Assembly (NCBI GenBank): GCA_009786685.1
Contig: WQRQ01000009.1
Location: 1-45,127, forward strand
From: Defluviitaleaceae bacterium
Lineage (GTDB): Bacteria; Bacillota; Clostridia; Lachnospirales; WQUN01
DNA: 45,127 nucleotides
Direction of reading: 5' to 3'
The position numbers and the translations under genes are program-made. The notes beneath the pieces are model-generated. The model ran no database searches. It saw only the letters and a list, made by a program, of their open reading frames with translations, and was not told the origin of the DNA. Each line of letters starts with the position of its first letter. The first letter of the stretch is position 1. This document shows positions 312-43,296 of this stretch, piece after piece.

Positions 312-2090
312 CTATTCGACCGTAACTGATTTTGCCAGATTGCGAGGTTTGTCAATGTCCAGTCCCTTGTTTGCTGCTACGTAGTAGCTGAAAAGCTGTA
401 ATACGATAACGGAAAGTGACGGAGAAAATAATTCGTTTATTTGCGGTAGCTTTATCAGGGAAAGCTTGTCGGTTTCTTCGGTTTTGCAGTTGCTTACGAA
501 TAGTACCTTTGCGCCTCGGCTTATTACTTGCTCCGCATTGCTTAGGATTTTGCCGTGGAGACGTTCGCAGCAGGCGATTGTTACTACCAGAGTATTTTCT
601 TCCACCAAGGAAATTGTGCCGTGTTTTAGCTCGCCGCCTGCGTAGGCTTCCGAGTGGATGTATGAGATTTCTTTTAGCTTTAGTGAGCCTTCCAGCGCGA
701 TGGCGTAGTCTATGTTTCTCCCTATAAAGAAGATACTTTTGTATCCGATACATGCGGCGGCGTATTTTTGGATATAGTCTACATGTTCAAAGATTTCTTG
801 GATTTTGTCGGGGATTGTTTTTAACTCATCCATTAGGCTTTCTGACCCTGAAAACTTAATGGCCAGCGTGTACAGCAGCACAAGCTGTGTAGAAAACGCC
901 TTTGTGGTAGCCACGGCAATTTCGGGGCCTGCGGCAGTGTAGATAGTGTGGTCTGTTTCTTTTGCGATGGTGCTGCCGATTACGTTTACGATAGAAAGCG
1001 TTGTCGCGCCTTTGTTTTTTGCCTCGCGCATTGCGGCTATGGTGTCGGCGGTCTCTCCCGATTGGCTTACAAGGATGACAAGCGTGCGTTTGTCCACGAT
1101 AGCGTCCTTGTAACGGAACTCGCTCGCAAGCTCCACCTCGCAAGAAAATCTGCAAAGCCTCTCGAATACATATTTTGACACAACGCCCGCATTGTATGCA
1201 GAGCCGCAGGCCGTTACCACGATTTTATCAAAATCTTTGATGTTAATTGCGTCGATTACTTTTTTATTTTCTCCCGCGATAATCGTTTGTATTGTGTCGC
1301 GCATTACCTTTGGCTGCTCCATTATTTCTTTTAGCATAAAGTGCGGGTAGCCGCCTTTTTCCGCGCTGTCTACGCTCCATGTTATTGTCTCGAGCTGTTT
1401 GGTAATCGGCTCTTTGTCCATGTTGTAAAATTGTACGCTGTTTTTTGTTATCACTGCGATTTCTTTGTCGTCCATGTAGTATACCTTGTTTGTGTGTTCC
1501 AAAATCGCGGGTACGTCGGACGCTATAAAATTTCCTGCTTCGGAGACGCCTACTATCAGCGGGTTGTCTTTTTTTACGGCGATTATGGTGTCGGGGTCGT
1601 CCAGACACATAATGCCCAGTGCGTATGAGCCTTCCAGTGCGTTTGTGGTTTTTATTACGGTGTTTAATAAATCGCCGTCGTAGTAGCGTTCGGCCAATTG
1701 TGCTACTACCTCGCTGTCTGTTTGGGATACAAATTTTATGCCGCGTTGCTCCAGCCGTTCTTTTAGGTGCTTGTAGTTTTCTATGATTCCGTTATGGACT
1801 ACCGCGATTTTGCTTGTGCTTCCCAAATGCGGGTGAGAATTTATATCCGAAGGCTCGCCGTGGGTAGCCCAGCGGGTATGTCCGATTCCCATGAAGCCGC
1901 TAATCGGGGTGCTTTCCAGCTTTTTTTCCAATGCAGAAAGACGACCCTTTTGTTTTGCCACCTCAAAGCCGTCTTTTCCGAATACGGCTATCCCTGCCGA
2001 GTCGTAGCCCCTGTACTCCAGACGTTTTAATCCGTCAACGATAATTGGTACTGCGCATTCATCCCCTGCGTAACCGATGATACCACACAT
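312..2090 (-). CDS. glmS: Glutamine-fructose-6-phosphate aminotransferase (isomerizing)
   Basis: 592 residues, normal length. It converts fructose-6-P and glutamine to glucosamine-6-P and glutamate, the entry step to peptidoglycan amino sugars. The N-terminal glutaminase domain begins MCGIIGYAG with the catalytic Cys2 and contains LKRLEYRGYDSAG and GHTRWATHG. The C-terminal half has two SIS domains, with VSQSGETADT (around residue 340) and the family-typical C terminus NLAKSVTVE. Start ATG with AAAAGGAGG 7 nt upstream. It follows the GXGXG glutamate synthase gene after 110 nt containing a GC-rich repeat and precedes glnA. No glmS ribozyme fits in that gap; being inside an operon, control is probably by the upstream leader or by the repeat. 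Confidence 0.97.
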   Translation of the reverse strand: MCGIIGYAGDECAVPIIVDGLKRLEYRGYDSAGIAVFGKDGFEVAKQKGRLSALEKKLESTPISGFMGIGHTRWATHGEPSDINSHPHLGSTSKIAVVHNGIIENYKHLKERLEQRGIKFVSQTDSEVVAQLAERYYDGDLLNTVIKTTNALEGSYALGIMCLDDPDTIIAVKKDNPLIVGVSEAGNFIASDVPAILEHTNKVYYMDDKEIAVITKNSVQFYNMDKEPITKQLETITWSVDSAEKGGYPHFMLKEIMEQPKVMRDTIQTIIAGENKKVIDAINIKDFDKIVVTACGSAYNAGVVSKYVFERLCRFSCEVELASEFRYKDAIVDKRTLVILVSQSGETADTIAAMREAKNKGATTLSIVNVIGSTIAKETDHTIYTAAGPEIAVATTKAFSTQLVLLYTLAIKFSGSESLMDELKTIPDKIQEIFEHVDYIQKYAAACIGYKSIFFIGRNIDYAIALEGSLKLKEISYIHSEAYAGGELKHGTISLVEENTLVVTIACCERLHGKILSNAEQVISRGAKVLFVSNCKTEETDKLSLIKLPQINELFSPSLSVIVLQLFSYYVAANKGLDIDKPRNLAKSVTVE

Positions 2091-2101
2091 ATAATTCCTC
2101 C

Positions 2102-2197
2102 TTTTAAATGGGGGCTACGCCCCCAAGCCCCCTCGCTACACGGGGCAAAGCCCCGTTCCGCTCCGCTCCCGCGTACCGCGCTCTGCGCGGCAGGTGG
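2102..2197 (-). repeat. GC-rich palindromic repeat, copy R1
   Basis: This fills the gap between the GXGXG subunit gene and glmS. It contains the hairpins GGGGGC-TAC-GCCCCC (2110-2124) and CGGGGC-AAA-GCCCCG (2141-2155). Read on the minus strand it ends GGGGGCGTAGCCCCCATTTA directly before the glmS ribosome-binding site. Copies R2 (17717-17812) and R3 (42637-42684) share this 3' part and the same orientation relative to the following gene. Confidence 0.8.
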
Positions 2198-2200
2198 ATT

Positions 2201-16830: not shown

Positions 16831-17694
16831 CTAACGCCACCTCCTTTTTTCAATCACATTAACGGTAAGATAAATAAAAAGCGCGGCAAACGAAATATAA
16901 TAAACGATATCACTAATCCTCAAAGCCCCCCGCGCAAAAAAATCAAACCGCGTAAAAATAGAAAACCATAAAAGCACGCGCACGATAATCCCGTCAAAAA
17001 TCAAATCATTAAAAATATAAAGCCCACCTGCCACAGCCAGCCCAATAATCCCAACAATAACCGCAGCCAAAATCCGTCGCGTGGAGTTATACCAAACCGC
17101 CACAACGCAAGCAATAACAAAAAGCACAAACATAAGCGAAGCAAAAGTAGAGGTAGGCATACTAACAGCAATTGCGTCGCTCAAAAACATAACAAAAATC
17201 GCGCCCATAGTACCCACAGCCGCGATAATCTGGCTTTCCGTAAGCACAGAAACAAAAACTCCAATAGCAATACAGGCCGCCCCCAAAAGCACAAACCCGA
17301 TATAAGCTCCCGCAATTTGCGCAACAGGCAAATCCCCATAGTTACGCAACAAAAACGGCATAACAACGGTAACAGCCACGCCAATCAAAAAAAGCGAAAG
17401 CGCGGCAAAAAATTTCCCAAGCACAATCCCTGTAACGGTAAGCGGGCTGGTATAAAGAAGCTGGTCGGTCTTCTGCCGCGACTCTTCGGAAAAAAGCCGC
17501 ATAGTAAGCACCGGCACAAGAATAAAAAAGAACACAGTAACATTAGCCAGCACAAAATGAAAATTACCGTCCATGCTGCGCACATTAAGCAAGGTAAAAA
17601 ATATCCCGATAAGCAAAAGCAAAAAAGCCAAAAAAACATAACCCATCATATTAGTAAAATACGTGCGCATTTCCTTCTTATAAATCGCTAACAT
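16831..17694 (-). CDS. ABC transporter permease, GldF/ABC-2 type
   Basis: 287 residues with about six hydrophobic helices, including MMGYVFLAFLLLLIGIFF, FFFILVPVLTMRLFSEESRQ and LIGVAVTVVMPFLLR. RLFSEESRQKTDQLLYTSPL after helix 2 is a family hallmark of ABC-2 permeases of the GldF/NosY type. ATG at 17694 has GGAGG 8 nt upstream. It overlaps the 3' end of the ATPase gene by 17 nt. The overlapping segment lies just past the GC-rich repeat R2, so the repeat sits directly upstream of this gene's translation start. Confidence 0.88.
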   Translation of the reverse strand: MLAIYKKEMRTYFTNMMGYVFLAFLLLLIGIFFTLLNVRSMDGNFHFVLANVTVFFFILVPVLTMRLFSEESRQKTDQLLYTSPLTVTGIVLGKFFAALSLFLIGVAVTVVMPFLLRNYGDLPVAQIAGAYIGFVLLGAACIAIGVFVSVLTESQIIAAVGTMGAIFVMFLSDAIAVSMPTSTFASLMFVLFVIACVVAVWYNSTRRILAAVIVGIIGLAVAGGLYIFNDLIFDGIIVRVLLWFSIFTRFDFFARGALRISDIVYYISFAALFIYLTVNVIEKRRWR

Positions 17695-18727
17695 CTTCGG
17701 CAACCTCCACTTCATCTAAATGGGGCTCTGCCCCAAGCCCCGCCGCTCCCGTCGGGCAAAGCCCGTCGTCCGCTTCCTCGGCGTAGCCTCCGGGACACGC
17801 TTCGCGTGCCGTCAAGGAAAGAAAAACTTCCTCCAGCGACAATTCATTAGACTTCATCATCAAAATCGGAAAATCATTCCGCGCACAGCAGCGGAAAATC
17901 GCCTCGCGGATATCCGCGCCTTCTTCTCCGTTTAAAATTAATTCCACCGTGCCTTCTTCTTTTACATCCGCAAAATCCAAGGAGGTTATCACGGGTACAT
18001 CACTAAATGCTGCGGAAACTTCCTCGCGGCCTCCCTTTACGCGTACCTGCATTTGTCCCTTCTGCAAGCCCTCGGAAAGCCCTTCGGGCGTACCCTGTGC
18101 CACGATTTTCCCCTTATTTATTATCATCACACGGTCACAAACCGCGCTAACCTCCTGCATAATATGGCTCGACAAAATAACGGTATGCCGCTCCCCAAGC
18201 CGCTTTACAACATCCCTCATCTCGATAATCTGCTTTGGGTCAAGCCCAATGGTAGGCTCGTCCATGATAATCACCTTAGGCTCGCCAATCATGGCCTGCG
18301 CCAGCCCAACCCGCTGCCGATACCCCCGCGACAGATTTTTAATCAGCCGCCGCTCCATATCCAAAATACTAACCTGTTCCATCACATGGGTGAGCATTTC
18401 CTTACGCCCTTTTCGCACCTTTTTGATATCCGCAACAAAATTAAGATATTCCCGCACCCGCATATCGCCATAAACAGGCGGCGTGTCCGGCAAATACCCG
18501 ATATTAGCCTTAGCCATCTCCGGCTCGGCCAAAATATCCACTCCGTTAATACTAACCTCGCCGCTTGTCGCCGCGATATATCCCGTCATAATATTCATGG
18601 TGGTAGTTTTCCCGGCTCCGTTAGGCCCCAAAAAGCCCACAACTTCACCGGCATTTATAGTAAAGCTCAACTCGTCAATAGCCTTACGCGCCCCGTATTT
18701 TTTAGTCAAATTCCGTACTTCAATCAA
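17678..18727 (-). CDS. ABC transporter ATPase with repeat-derived C-terminal tail
   Basis: 349 residues. LGPNGAGKTTTMNIMTG (Walker A, about residue 33), NLSRGYRQRVGLAQAM (signature), KVIIMDEPTIGLDP (Walker B) and a switch His in LSSHIMQEV are all intact. The start is taken as TTG at 18727 behind GGAG with 7-nt spacing; a longer frame runs into a terminator palindrome and is rejected. Members of this family normally end near LSLEEVFLSLTARE. Here about 40 extra residues rich in Gly, Ala, Glu and Asp follow, encoded by GC-rich repeat R2. It energizes the adjacent permease and GldG-like protein. Confidence 0.88.
   Translation of the reverse strand: MIEVRNLTKKYGARKAIDELSFTINAGEVVGFLGPNGAGKTTTMNIMTGYIAATSGEVSINGVDILAEPEMAKANIGYLPDTPPVYGDMRVREYLNFVADIKKVRKGRKEMLTHVMEQVSILDMERRLIKNLSRGYRQRVGLAQAMIGEPKVIIMDEPTIGLDPKQIIEMRDVVKRLGERHTVILSSHIMQEVSAVCDRVMIINKGKIVAQGTPEGLSEGLQKGQMQVRVKGGREEVSAAFSDVPVITSLDFADVKEEGTVELILNGEEGADIREAIFRCCARNDFPILMMKSNELSLEEVFLSLTAREACPGGYAEEADDGLCPTGAAGLGAEPHLDEVEVAEDVSDL
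17717..17812 (-). repeat. GC-rich palindromic repeat, copy R2 (inside coding sequence)
   Basis: Contains GGGGC-TCT-GCCCC (17722-17734), CGGGC-AAA-GCCCG (17753-17765) and a CACGC/GCGTG stem near 17795. On the minus strand its end GGGGCTTGGGGC, GAGCCCCATTTA parallels R1. It lies in the 3' end of the ABC ATPase gene and just upstream of the permease start. Confidence 0.75.
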
Positions 18728-18793
18728 AAAAATCACTCCATTCAAAGTCCAACGAACTATATCATAACCGAATTTTGGAAGAATTAAAATAAA

Positions 18794-18830
18794 AAATCCA
18801 ACTGACGATAAATTATCGTCAGTTGGATTT
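18794..18830. terminator. TGACGATAA palindrome, copy P1 (terminator)
   Basis: A 37-nt perfect palindrome with 18-bp arms (AAATCCAACTGACGATAA) around one central base, with T-rich sequence on both sides. It lies 17 nt downstream of the 2-hydroxyacid dehydrogenase gene on the minus strand and ends that operon before the ABC ATPase gene. Similar palindromes are P2 (36077) and P3 (41836). Confidence 0.8.
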
Positions 18831-18846
18831 TTCACATGCCGGGAAT

Positions 18847-36011: not shown

Positions 36012-36076
36012 TATAAAAACCTCCTTTTTCCCATGGTATTATACTTTGCTTGCGACGGCAAGAAAAAAAGAAAAAA

Positions 36077-36107
36077 TTCAACTGACGATATTTTACGGTC
36101 AGTTGAA
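36077..36107. repeat. TGACGATAA palindrome, copy P2
   Basis: TTCAACTGAC (36077-36086) pairs perfectly with GTCAGTTGAA (36098-36107). Unlike P1 and P3 it lies between two divergent genes, upstream of both, so it cannot be an ordinary 3' terminator. Confidence 0.75.
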
Positions 36108-36120
36108 AAGTAAAAAAAAT

Positions 36121-40324: not shown

Positions 40325-41829
40325 TGACTACTAATGGTATAAGCGGTGAAAAAATCCGCGCCTTTCTTTTTGATAATATCGTAACGATTATTTTCTTGGG
40401 CTTTGTGGTTTTTGGTTTTCTTGTTTCCGATACCTTTACGCCGAGTTCTTTTACCAATGATATTATTTCGCGCTTTTTCCGTAACGGGGTTTTGGTGCTT
40501 TCGCTTATTATTCCTATTATGGCGGGGCTTGGGCTTAACTTTGGTATCGTGGTGGGCGCGCTTGCGGGGCTGCTTTCTATTGTGTTTGTGCGGTATCATT
40601 ATGCCTTGTTCCCCGGGATTGGCGGGCTTTTGCTTTGCTTTGCCATTGCTACACCCATTGCGATTCTTTTTGGATTTTTGACGGGAAAGCTTTATAACAA
40701 AACTCGCGGACAGGAAATGGTCGCAAGCCTTATTGTTGGCTTTTTTGCGGGCGGTTTATATGAAATATTTTTGCTGTTTGGCGTGGGTGGGATTATCCCT
40801 GTGCGCTGGGGACATAGGATGATAAACCCCGTAGCGGAAGGCGTGCGCCCGGTGGGTATTCGCAGCTCCTTCGAAATGGGCTTGCCTGCGGCGGAAATGA
40901 CAGGCCGTGGCTTTGCAAATGAAGTTCCCGGTATGGCCAGGGCGTTAAATAATCTTTGGCGCGTGGAATTTGTTTATGCACTCGCGGCAGTTTCTATTGC
41001 CGTATTTGCCTTCCTTGTAATACGACGCATTTATATGAAGAAAAATGCCGCCGCTTTTTCCGCATTAAACGAGCCGCTATGGGCTTTTTGCGTAAAAATT
41101 GCCTTATGCGGCGCGGTAGTGCTTTTTGCGATTTTCAGCTCCGGGCAAATTTATTACTGGTACCATGTACTGTACAACGACCCGTATATTACAAGGCTCG
41201 ACCTGTTGCCCGGGATTTCCAATTTTGCCGTGGAAATCAGCCGCATAGACCGTGTTCCTGTTGTCACGGGGCTTGTGATTGCTGCTGTTGGTTTGTTTAT
41301 CGTTTATTTTTCCAAGACAAAGCTTGGGCAGGATTGCCGCAGTGTAGGACAGAGCCAGCAAATTGCTAATGTGTCGGGCATTAATGTTGACCGTACGCGG
41401 ATAATTTCTACTATTATTTCTACTGTGCTTGCGGCTTGGGGTATGATTATCTTTTTGCAAGATATGGGACATGTAAGCACCTATACCGTGCATAGAAACA
41501 TTGGCTTTTTCTCCGTAGCGGCGATTTTGGTGGGTGGCGCAACTGCCGCCAGAGCAAGTGTGAAAAATGCCATGGTAGGGCTTTTGCTTTTCCATGCTAT
41601 GTTTATTGTTTCGCCCGCCGTAGGATTGTTTGTGTTTAACGACGGAAACGCAGGCGAATACATGCGCACATTTATGGTTTACGGCGTTATCGGTGTCTCG
41701 CTTGGGCTGTATGTTTGGAAGGCCAATAAAGCCGCTAGGGATAAAGAACGATTAAGAGATAACGATGACAAGCTGATGGCAAATTTACCGATGGTAGGTT
41801 TGAATGAAGCCTCAGGGATGGATGATTAA
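40324..41829 (+). CDS. ABC transporter permease 2 of the DUF3798 importer
   Basis: 501 residues, long for this family, with about 10 hydrophobic helices. IIPIMAGLGLNFGIVVGALA corresponds to the conserved Gly-rich helix of BPD_transp_2 permeases; KLGQDCRSVGQSQQIANVSG and INVDRTRIISTIISTVLAA form the coupling loop, parallel to permease 1. A central segment of about 100 residues between helices (RMINPVAEGVRPVGIRSSF to ARALNNLWR) is predicted extracytoplasmic. Its start is fused to the end of permease 1 as TAATG. It is last in the operon, followed by palindrome P3 and a terminator. Confidence 0.85.
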   Translation: MTTNGISGEKIRAFLFDNIVTIIFLGFVVFGFLVSDTFTPSSFTNDIISRFFRNGVLVLSLIIPIMAGLGLNFGIVVGALAGLLSIVFVRYHYALFPGIGGLLLCFAIATPIAILFGFLTGKLYNKTRGQEMVASLIVGFFAGGLYEIFLLFGVGGIIPVRWGHRMINPVAEGVRPVGIRSSFEMGLPAAEMTGRGFANEVPGMARALNNLWRVEFVYALAAVSIAVFAFLVIRRIYMKKNAAAFSALNEPLWAFCVKIALCGAVVLFAIFSSGQIYYWYHVLYNDPYITRLDLLPGISNFAVEISRIDRVPVVTGLVIAAVGLFIVYFSKTKLGQDCRSVGQSQQIANVSGINVDRTRIISTIISTVLAAWGMIIFLQDMGHVSTYTVHRNIGFFSVAAILVGGATAARASVKNAMVGLLLFHAMFIVSPAVGLFVFNDGNAGEYMRTFMVYGVIGVSLGLYVWKANKAARDKERLRDNDDKLMANLPMVGLNEASGMDD

Positions 41830-41835
41830 ATAAAG

Positions 41836-41862
41836 CAACTAACGATAAATTATCGTCAGTTG
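41836..41862 (+). terminator. TGACGATAA palindrome, copy P3
   Basis: CAACTAACGATAA (41836-41848) pairs with TTATCGTCAGTTG (41850-41862), one mismatch, 7 nt after the permease 2 stop. AT-rich sequence follows. Confidence 0.7.
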
Positions 41863-41880
41863 AATTTTCAGAGTGAAGAC

Positions 41881-42038: not shown

Positions 42039-42635
42039 ATGCCTGCATTTTTTACGTACCTACAGAATATAACGTACTATCTGGTGTTTGCCACGGTTAT
42101 CGGGATTTTCGCGCCGTCGGGTAAATATAAGAAATTTGTTTCGCTGGTTTTGGGGTTTGTGCTTCTGCTGTTGATGATACAGCCGCTTGCGGGGTTTTTT
42201 AACGGGCGGGATGTTCCTGTCACTCAGTGGTTTGCGGGGTTTTCCGGGGACGGCGGAATTGCTCGGGCGGGAGTGGATTCTGCCTATGCCGACTGGTGGG
42301 ATGGGCATTTGCGTGTGGCTTTTGAGGCGCAGCTGGATGCGCAGATTTCCAGGCTTTTGGAAGGGGAGGGGTTTGAGGTTTATTCTACCGCCTTCACGTA
42401 TACGGACGACTTTGGCGAGTTGAATTCCATCAGGGTTAGCGTAAGCCGAAGAGAAAAAACCGACGACGACACGGGGCGTATCCCCTTCATCAGAATACAG
42501 ACACCGCAGGTTAGGATTATCCAAATCGGTGAGCCTGCTTCCGATAAAAACTGCCCCGATTCCGCTTTGATAAAAAATTTAATTTCGGACTTCTACAACC
42601 TGCCCACTTCACATATATATGTAACTGTACAGTAG
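42039..42635 (+). CDS. spoIIIAF: Stage III sporulation protein AF
   Basis: 198 residues. Two N-terminal membrane helices (YYLVFATVIGIFAP, about residues 12-25, and FVSLVLGFVLLLLMIQPLAG, about 32-51) are followed by an extracellular domain with the pattern FEAQLDAQISRLLEGEGFEV and NSIRVSVSRRE. This is the SpoIIIAF layout. The protein belongs to the mother-cell side of the SpoIIIA-SpoIIQ channel that joins mother cell and forespore. It begins a three-gene unit whose usual upstream neighbours spoIIIAA-AE are missing here. Confidence 0.88.
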   Translation: MPAFFTYLQNITYYLVFATVIGIFAPSGKYKKFVSLVLGFVLLLLMIQPLAGFFNGRDVPVTQWFAGFSGDGGIARAGVDSAYADWWDGHLRVAFEAQLDAQISRLLEGEGFEVYSTAFTYTDDFGELNSIRVSVSRREKTDDDTGRIPFIRIQTPQVRIIQIGEPASDKNCPDSALIKNLISDFYNLPTSHIYVTVQ

Positions 42636-42636
42636 T

Positions 42637-42684
42637 CCACCGCCGCGCAAAGCGAGGGGGCTAGGGGGCGTAGCCCCCATTCAA
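42637..42684 (+). repeat. GC-rich palindromic repeat, copy R3 (short form)
   Basis: In the 70-bp spoIIIAF-spoIIIAG gap. It shares TCCACC-GCCGCGCA and GCGAGGGGGCT-GGGGGC, GTAGCCCCCATT-AAAAG with the minus strand of R1 but lacks about 55 nt of its middle. The hairpin GGGGGC-GTA-GCCCCC is at 42664-42678, directly before the spoIIIAG ribosome-binding site. Confidence 0.8.
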
Positions 42685-42705: not shown

Positions 42706-43296
42706 ATGACAAAGGTATTTCGCAAGCTTATGGCGGAAAACAAGATGTTGGCAATTGTATTGGTGGTATTTGTGGTGTTGGGCGCGATTTTATTGTTTAT
42801 GGGGAGGTTTATGCGCGAGCCGGAGGAATATATTCGCGACTTTTTTTACGGCGCGGCCGAACTCACCGAAATCACACCCGCTACGCTACAGGAGGTCTTC
42901 CACTACGAGCAAGCGATAGAACGCCGACTGGAGGAGTTTTTCTCCCTCGTAGAAGGCGCAGGAAGTGTACGCGTGATGGTAAGTCCGCTGGGAAGTACCG
43001 AAACGGTTTTTGCCATAGACGTAAACGAAACCCGCGCCCAGTCAACAGAAGCCGATAGCCAAGGCGGCACGCGGGAAACGGAAAACCATCAACGCGCCGA
43101 ACAAACCGTAATAATAACAAACCGCCAAGGAGCCGACACGCCGCTGGTAATACGCGAAATCGAGCCTCGCATAGAGGGTATAGTAATAATCGCCGAAGGA
43201 GGTGACAACCCTCTGGTGAGGGACGCACTCACCCGCGCCGCCCGCGCCGTCTTGGGGCTGGAAGCGCATATGGTACAGGTATTAACAATGAAATAG
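42706..43296 (+). CDS. spoIIIAG: Stage III sporulation protein AG
   Basis: 196 residues. One membrane helix (MLAIVLVVFVVLGAILLFMG, about residues 14-33) precedes a ring-building-motif domain: YEQAIERRLEEFFSLVEGAG, SVRVMVSPLGSTETVFAID, TVIITNRQGADTPLVIREI and EGIVIIAEGGDNPLVRDALT, with ARAVLGLEAHMVQVLTMK at the end. SpoIIIAG forms a large ring in the mother-cell membrane around the forespore. ATG behind GGGTGA. The R3 repeat separates it from spoIIIAF. Confidence 0.93.
   Translation: MTKVFRKLMAENKMLAIVLVVFVVLGAILLFMGRFMREPEEYIRDFFYGAAELTEITPATLQEVFHYEQAIERRLEEFFSLVEGAGSVRVMVSPLGSTETVFAIDVNETRAQSTEADSQGGTRETENHQRAEQTVIITNRQGADTPLVIREIEPRIEGIVIIAEGGDNPLVRDALTRAARAVLGLEAHMVQVLTMK

Follow-up and report, generated by a model that had tools for sequence, protein, structure and literature searches.

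We found that three hairpin-rich repeats (R1, R2 and R3) in a stretch of 45,127 nucleotides from a Defluviitaleaceae bacterium, the whole of which is called the window here, appear to be copies of a small non-autonomous mobile repeat, similar in kind to RPE and ERIC, that is placed next to Shine-Dalgarno (SD) sequences and, with few exceptions, in the sense orientation. We assign this reading a probability of about 0.55. Small dispersed repeats are frequent at sites of low cost to the host, such as the space between convergent genes. A repeat lying instead in one orientation before the SDs of core genes (glmS, atpD, dxr, rpsP, groES, ppdK and others) would represent a new insertion specificity.

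R1, R2 and R3 were located by direct reading of the sequence at the positions given in the initial annotation, and each was found, as stated there, to point the same way as the genes and to stop just short of an SD. Genes in the window were identified with Pfam and NCBIfam, the spoIIIAG and GldF-like matches being under NCBI's curated cut-offs. The features are listed below.

2107..2200, minus strand: R1, full-length copy of subfamily A, between the upstream stop codon (2201-2203) and the glmS SD
2177..2191, minus strand: R1 hairpin 1, CCGCGC/GCGCGG
2140..2156, minus strand: R1 hairpin 2, ACGGGGC-TTT-GCCCCGT, with covariation across copies
2110..2124, minus strand: R1 hairpin 3, GGGGGC-GTA-GCCCCC, with the SD 7 nt beyond its end
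2097..2105, minus strand: glmS SD, AAAAGGAGG; an SD is also present at the empty glmS site of G006
312..2090, minus strand: glmS, downstream of R1 (TIGR01135)
17715..17812, minus strand: R2, diverged copy of subfamily B, in frame in the 3' end of an ABC ATPase gene, with the permease SD next
17722..17734, minus strand: R2 hairpin 3, GGGGC-AGA-GCCCC
17704..17708, minus strand: permease SD, GGAGG, read directly and also present in a relative without R2
16831..17694, minus strand: ABC-2 permease, downstream of R2 (Pfam/NCBIfam)
17678..18835, minus strand: ABC transporter ATPase, C-terminal end extended by R2 (comparison with G005)
42632..42681, plus strand: R3, shortened copy of subfamily A of ~50 nt, between spoIIIAF and spoIIIAG
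42664..42678, plus strand: R3 hairpin 3 (sequence read and covariance model)
42633-42635, plus strand: TAG stop codon at the 5' end of R3, apparently supplied to spoIIIAF by R3
42706..43296, plus strand: spoIIIAG, downstream of R3 (TIGR02830, E=3.9e-32, under NCBI's curated cut-off)

The ends of R1 are inferred and accurate to a few bases. The gene on its 5' side encodes a GXGXG domain, and the stop codon of this gene precedes R1. On the coding strand, hairpin 3 is followed by ATT and then by the A-rich SD, which we judged to be host sequence and no part of the element because the empty site in G006 has a glmS SD too. R2 does precede the permease SD, but it is not purely intergenic, since the last part of the ATPase gene upstream reads through it in frame. 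R3 is a member of the same family but lacks hairpin 2, and R2 represents a separate subfamily.

The resemblance among the three repeats is, judged by homology searches, beyond chance, since both blastn and a covariance model find many further copies. With R1 as the query, blastn returned 27 places (E<=1) in this genome, and the top match apart from R1 itself had E=1.5e-29. The covariance model, based on a core alignment (A1) of 18 chosen copies, gave 77 matches at E<=1, of which 45 reached E<=0.01 and 42 reached E<=1e-4, which puts the family at ~42-45 copies in the 2.9-Mb draft genome. Copies were found at or near contig ends on C59, C6, C166, C53, C161, C35, C135 and C137 of this genome; therefore the draft assembly is probably broken at the repeat and the real copy number higher. 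The element is ~50-130 bases long, and the number of inner hairpins differs between copies. The left end is weakly conserved, with exact boundaries accurate only to a few bases, and two subfamilies can be told apart by their ends (GAGGGGGCTTGGGGGCGTAGCCCCCATT in A and GGCGGGGTCGTAGGGGCAGAGCCCCTACTTAAA in B). Matches were present in 23 of 41 genomes searched, which are drafts with gene calls from a simple script. All ten genomes of the genus had matches, and outside it there were 28 in G024 (second genus, g16) and 44 in G021 (third genus, g13). At loci L303, L306 and L315 of G021, ppdK and other genes are preceded by tandem arrays in which the element occurs two or three times; in the L303 and L306 arrays the repeated unit takes in flanking sequence.

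The transcribed strand carries up to three or more GC-rich hairpins, which in full-length copies are separate, the two ends of the element not being paired with each other. The sense strand is G-rich, with a GC skew of +0.29. The helices covary: 9 of 15 pairs were double-changed and 95.9% of cells were paired, compared with 40-54% in slid controls. None of 500 shuffles reached those covariation values, and 111 of 500 did so for the number of further pair types. An intrinsic terminator or attenuator was rejected, as the sequence after hairpin 3 reads ATTnAAA or TACTTAAA before turning to purines, with no T-run. At gathering scores, Rfam gave a single tRNA in the window and no match on the element, the glmS ribozyme included, and a search of 16 element loci at E<=1 returned no family matching the elements. 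Near one element locus (L041, 354-502), a match to RF00557, the leader of ribosomal protein L10, scored 49.5 bits and exceeded the gathering score.

We then analyzed the placement of the copies relative to genes. Labels of downstream genes outside the window (rpsP, groES, ppdK, rpmE, rplT, proC, glgA, carB, tgt, hflX, purF, dxr, atpD and others) are our own reading of the translations and not database annotation. Three of the 45 matches at E<=0.01 in this genome are cut by contig ends, leaving 42 that could be judged. Among these, 39 lie in the sense orientation directly before a start codon, mostly with a clear SD. The other three are a copy in frame near the start of purF, a copy 110 nt before the next called gene (L089) and a weak match of 22 bits (L093) that is probably not a family member. 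In the two other genera, 20 copies or copy clusters per genome were taken by score together with 2 others each. Directly before a start were 21 of the 22 copies examined in G024, one being found beside tRNA-Ser on the other strand, and 20 of the 22 examined in G021, where one was cut by a contig end. One antisense copy, in frame, was seen in carB of G021. At 21 loci in relatives of the same genus, nine copies were directly before a start, one was farther up the leader, six were sense matches inside five genes, one preceded tRNA-Lys and four had no assignable position. The preference for the SD region is not absolute, because the in-frame copies (hflX, tgt and others) and the tRNA-Lys copy do not adjoin an SD. 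By an estimate from the window alone, with crude gene calls, a random intergenic position and orientation would land 12-32 nt before a sense start in 7.7% of cases (0.077).

The initial annotation had argued from three copies of one orientation and proposed a genome-wide search with a tally of orientations; this search did not turn up the mix of both orientations and random sites that would have spoken against its reading. On contig C9, which holds the window, and likewise on C10, C4 and C17 of G024, copies are found on both genomic strands, and every one of them is in the sense direction of the gene it precedes; a replication-strand bias therefore cannot be the cause of the orientation. A reading-frame constraint was also rejected as the reason for the sense orientation of copies inside genes, as the antisense frames are more open (2.5 of 3, versus 1.6 of 3 for sense).

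Comparison with close relatives gives good support to mobility of the element, because filled and empty sites were found at five loci. At glmS, the upstream gene of G006 has the same length and a similar end, with TGATGGAGGTTTTGTTATG in place of the element. Between atpG and atpD, G003, G006 and G007 have CAATAAAGGAGAGGTTTCACTTG and no element; in the present genome the element is found between TAA and AAAGGAGAGGTTTCACTTG, the latter unchanged from the relatives, and AAAGGAGAGGTTTCAC is kept as well. The element is absent between spoIIIAF and spoIIIAG in all seven genus relatives read, and R3 appears to give a new TAG, SpoIIIAF being one residue shorter than in G005. R2 is absent in G005, and the ATPase in this genome is 32 residues longer at that point. 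At the cdsA-dxr junction the copy is absent in six genus relatives, and here it is readable in frame as an N-terminal extension of dxr starting at the stop of cdsA. The earlier proposal of a mobile palindromic repeat is thus supported at R1, R2, R3, atpD and dxr. In addition, the hflX of G004 contains a copy in frame, alongside another repeat, and the 89% identical protein of G002 is without the copy.

The atpD comparison, for which 23 of 30 fetched loci from 32 matches are shown, revealed copies at the same point in G000, G005 (degenerate) and G049 (another genus, short). This suggests that one site has been used repeatedly for insertion, since these copies differ in type and length. A duplication of 2-3 nt (CA) is possible at R3, and A-runs hide the ends at atpD; neither an end-to-end inverted repeat nor a clear target duplication, the marks of MITEs such as ERIC, Correia and RUP, was seen in the copies examined. 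The dxr genes of G006 (L260), G002 (L261) and G004 (L262) were found to hold insertions unrelated to the present element, in frame, ~20-55 residues long and all in one loop that follows IWQC, and it seems that enzymes of this clade can accommodate more than one family of repeats.

The distance from the end of hairpin 3 to the SD was 7-16 nt in 71 of the 73 copies with a recognisable SD (78 copies from three genomes), with the same range in the three genera. Apparent free room of more than 40 nt lay upstream of 25 copies, of which 24 were still within 15 nt of the SD, although several of these gaps are inflated by genes missed by the simple caller and a joint probability is not to be read at face value. 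It looks likely that the SD region is preferred, because copies with room upstream remain this close to it. The initial annotation had also considered a mobile repeat tolerated only at such sites; mobility stands, but tolerance alone is incomplete as an explanation given these 24 copies. The SDs at atpD, spoIIIAG and the permease are the host's, because relatives without the element have the SD region too. In G021, an ATGGAG type of SD was found in 9 of 18 copies versus 1 of 12 background genes, and in the g13 lineage the element may bring an SD of its own.

We propose that the element would insert on the coding strand a few bases 5' of the SD of a gene, so that SD, spacer and start codon of the host stay as they were. 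If the upstream gene extends over the SD, a copy would give that gene a new stop codon (as at R3) or extend its protein in frame (as at R2), and occasionally a copy would land in frame inside a gene. The placement would come mainly from an insertion preference for the SD region and not from selection alone, and we lean towards insertion preference plus selection as its cause. More tentatively, and at somewhat less than even odds, the element may home on the SD region as its integration target and read the strand from it, moved by an as yet unnamed enzyme. Such an element would enter operons sense-only between stop codon and SD, breaking neither gene. The mobilising enzyme would act in trans and would belong neither to the Y1 tyrosine transposases nor to the reverse transcriptases. 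In the mRNA, the stable hairpin that comes to lie 7-16 nt ahead of the SD would weaken the coupling of translation to the gene upstream, and it could also protect or mark an mRNA end. The element would create new stop codons and extend proteins, and the dozens of insertions offer a natural set for measuring the effects of a hairpin near the SD on translation and operon coupling.

Random insertion followed by selection, which would remove all copies except those that spare stop codon, SD and reading frames and are G-rich in the mRNA, is the strongest competitor, though we consider it rather unlikely. In tight operons, the gap from stop codon to SD is nearly the only free space. The G-richness of the sense strand fits this view, and in the reverse orientation exposed C-runs would mask the SD or serve as Rho-loading sites. 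In an in silico test on 38 copies of this genome, among them two without a recognisable SD (L031 and L032), flipping the element lowered the predicted accessibility of the SD (mean unpaired) from 0.41 to 0.33, the native orientation being higher in 27 of 38 (p=0.0016). However, this effect is small, and deleting the element gave a mean of 0.49, not significantly different from native (p=0.06). The copies that stay within 15 nt of the SD despite free room upstream also argue against selection as the sole cause, as does the sense orientation of all in-gene copies except that in carB, given that antisense frames are more open.

A functional cis-regulatory RNA, acting on translation or stability and spreading by its usefulness at gene starts, would account for the covarying helices and the strict spacing to the SD. 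Four downstream genes are shared between this genome and g13 or g16 (ppdK, glgA, an ABC transporter and, judged by eye, the L085/L317 gene), versus ~0.6 expected from copy numbers. We regard this explanation as improbable: the genes that follow the copies mostly have housekeeping roles with no relation to one another, sister species lack the element at most of the orthologous sites examined, some copies lie in frame within enzymes, and the element loci match no Rfam family. A conserved regulon was rejected, as an all-against-all comparison of the downstream proteins gave few shared genes; several pairs in that comparison seem to be paralogues (DegV, aldo-keto reductase, glmS/purF, ABC ATPases).

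It is very improbable that the element is a REP-type palindrome moved by a RAYT/IS200-like transposase, or that a reverse transcriptase moves it as a retro-element or a derivative of a group II intron: hairpins, GTAG near hairpins and single-orientation insertion at a short motif, which is typical of IS200/IS605 elements, fit such an origin, but in these incomplete assemblies (82-96%) Y1_Tnp (PF01797), the RAYT-type transposase domain, was found in 0 of 8 carrier relatives and once in this genome, and RVT_1 (PF00078) in 2 of 9 carriers, being absent in G021 and G024. A mobilising enzyme or autonomous relative was not found in the genomes searched. A phage or plasmid origin was rejected after searches of viral contigs with two exact patterns and distant blastn searches, both without matches.

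To place the element among known systems, we compared it with described families of small repeats. The RPE of Rickettsia, as presented in the relevant part of PMC2229807, are likewise structured, ~100-150 nt long and present in many copies, in frame in conserved proteins as well as between genes. In-frame copies in conserved genes are also a trait of the present element (R2 in the ATPase, hflX of G004, and the N-terminal ends of purF and dxr). However, the sequence and phylum are different, and almost all copies here are sense and straight before an SD. The terminal inverted repeat of ~12 bp given for RPE in Table 1 of PMC2229807 was not seen in the present element, whose full-length copies have separate hairpins. 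ERIC and YPAL are described in the same source as lying between cotranscribed genes and folding in the mRNA, with an effect that depends on orientation; ERIC differs by short terminal inverted repeats and target duplications, and the section of PMC2229807 on these repeats does not mention a sense-only rule before the SD. BOX, RUP and SPRITE are small structured dispersed repeats as well, BOX being modular with variable inner units (sections of PMC3049150), but Table 1 of that paper shows the pneumococcal repeats over-represented between convergent genes, the opposite placement. REP and BIME with RAYT share the short GC-rich palindromes, some of them intragenic (sections of PMC3733652), but have units of 20-40 bp with a GTAG or CGTC tag, and their transposase family is missing in the carrier relatives searched. 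The cited sections describe none of these families as both sense-only and adjacent to the SD. An element of such placement was not described in the titles and opening lines of abstracts in the open-licence literature searched on RPE, ERIC, MITE and Clostridia repeats, which is a weak absence. We file the element as a variant of the small non-autonomous dispersed repeats and as no member of the RPE, ERIC/YPAL or BOX families, with a placement rule (SD-adjacent and sense-only) that appears to be new.

Other repeats were observed in the same sequences. A second repeat, recognised by the stretch around ACACCGGG and CATTCCCTCGAAGCCG, was found at L059 (hflX of G004) and L153 (upstream of atpD in G002); it is in frame in hflX and between genes elsewhere. 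Within the window, positions 18790-18832, 36070-36111 and 41827-41868 hold palindromes (CAACTGACGATAAATTATCGTCAGTTG and relatives) that are 76-88% alike and have T-runs, and these look like repeated terminators or another dispersed palindrome.
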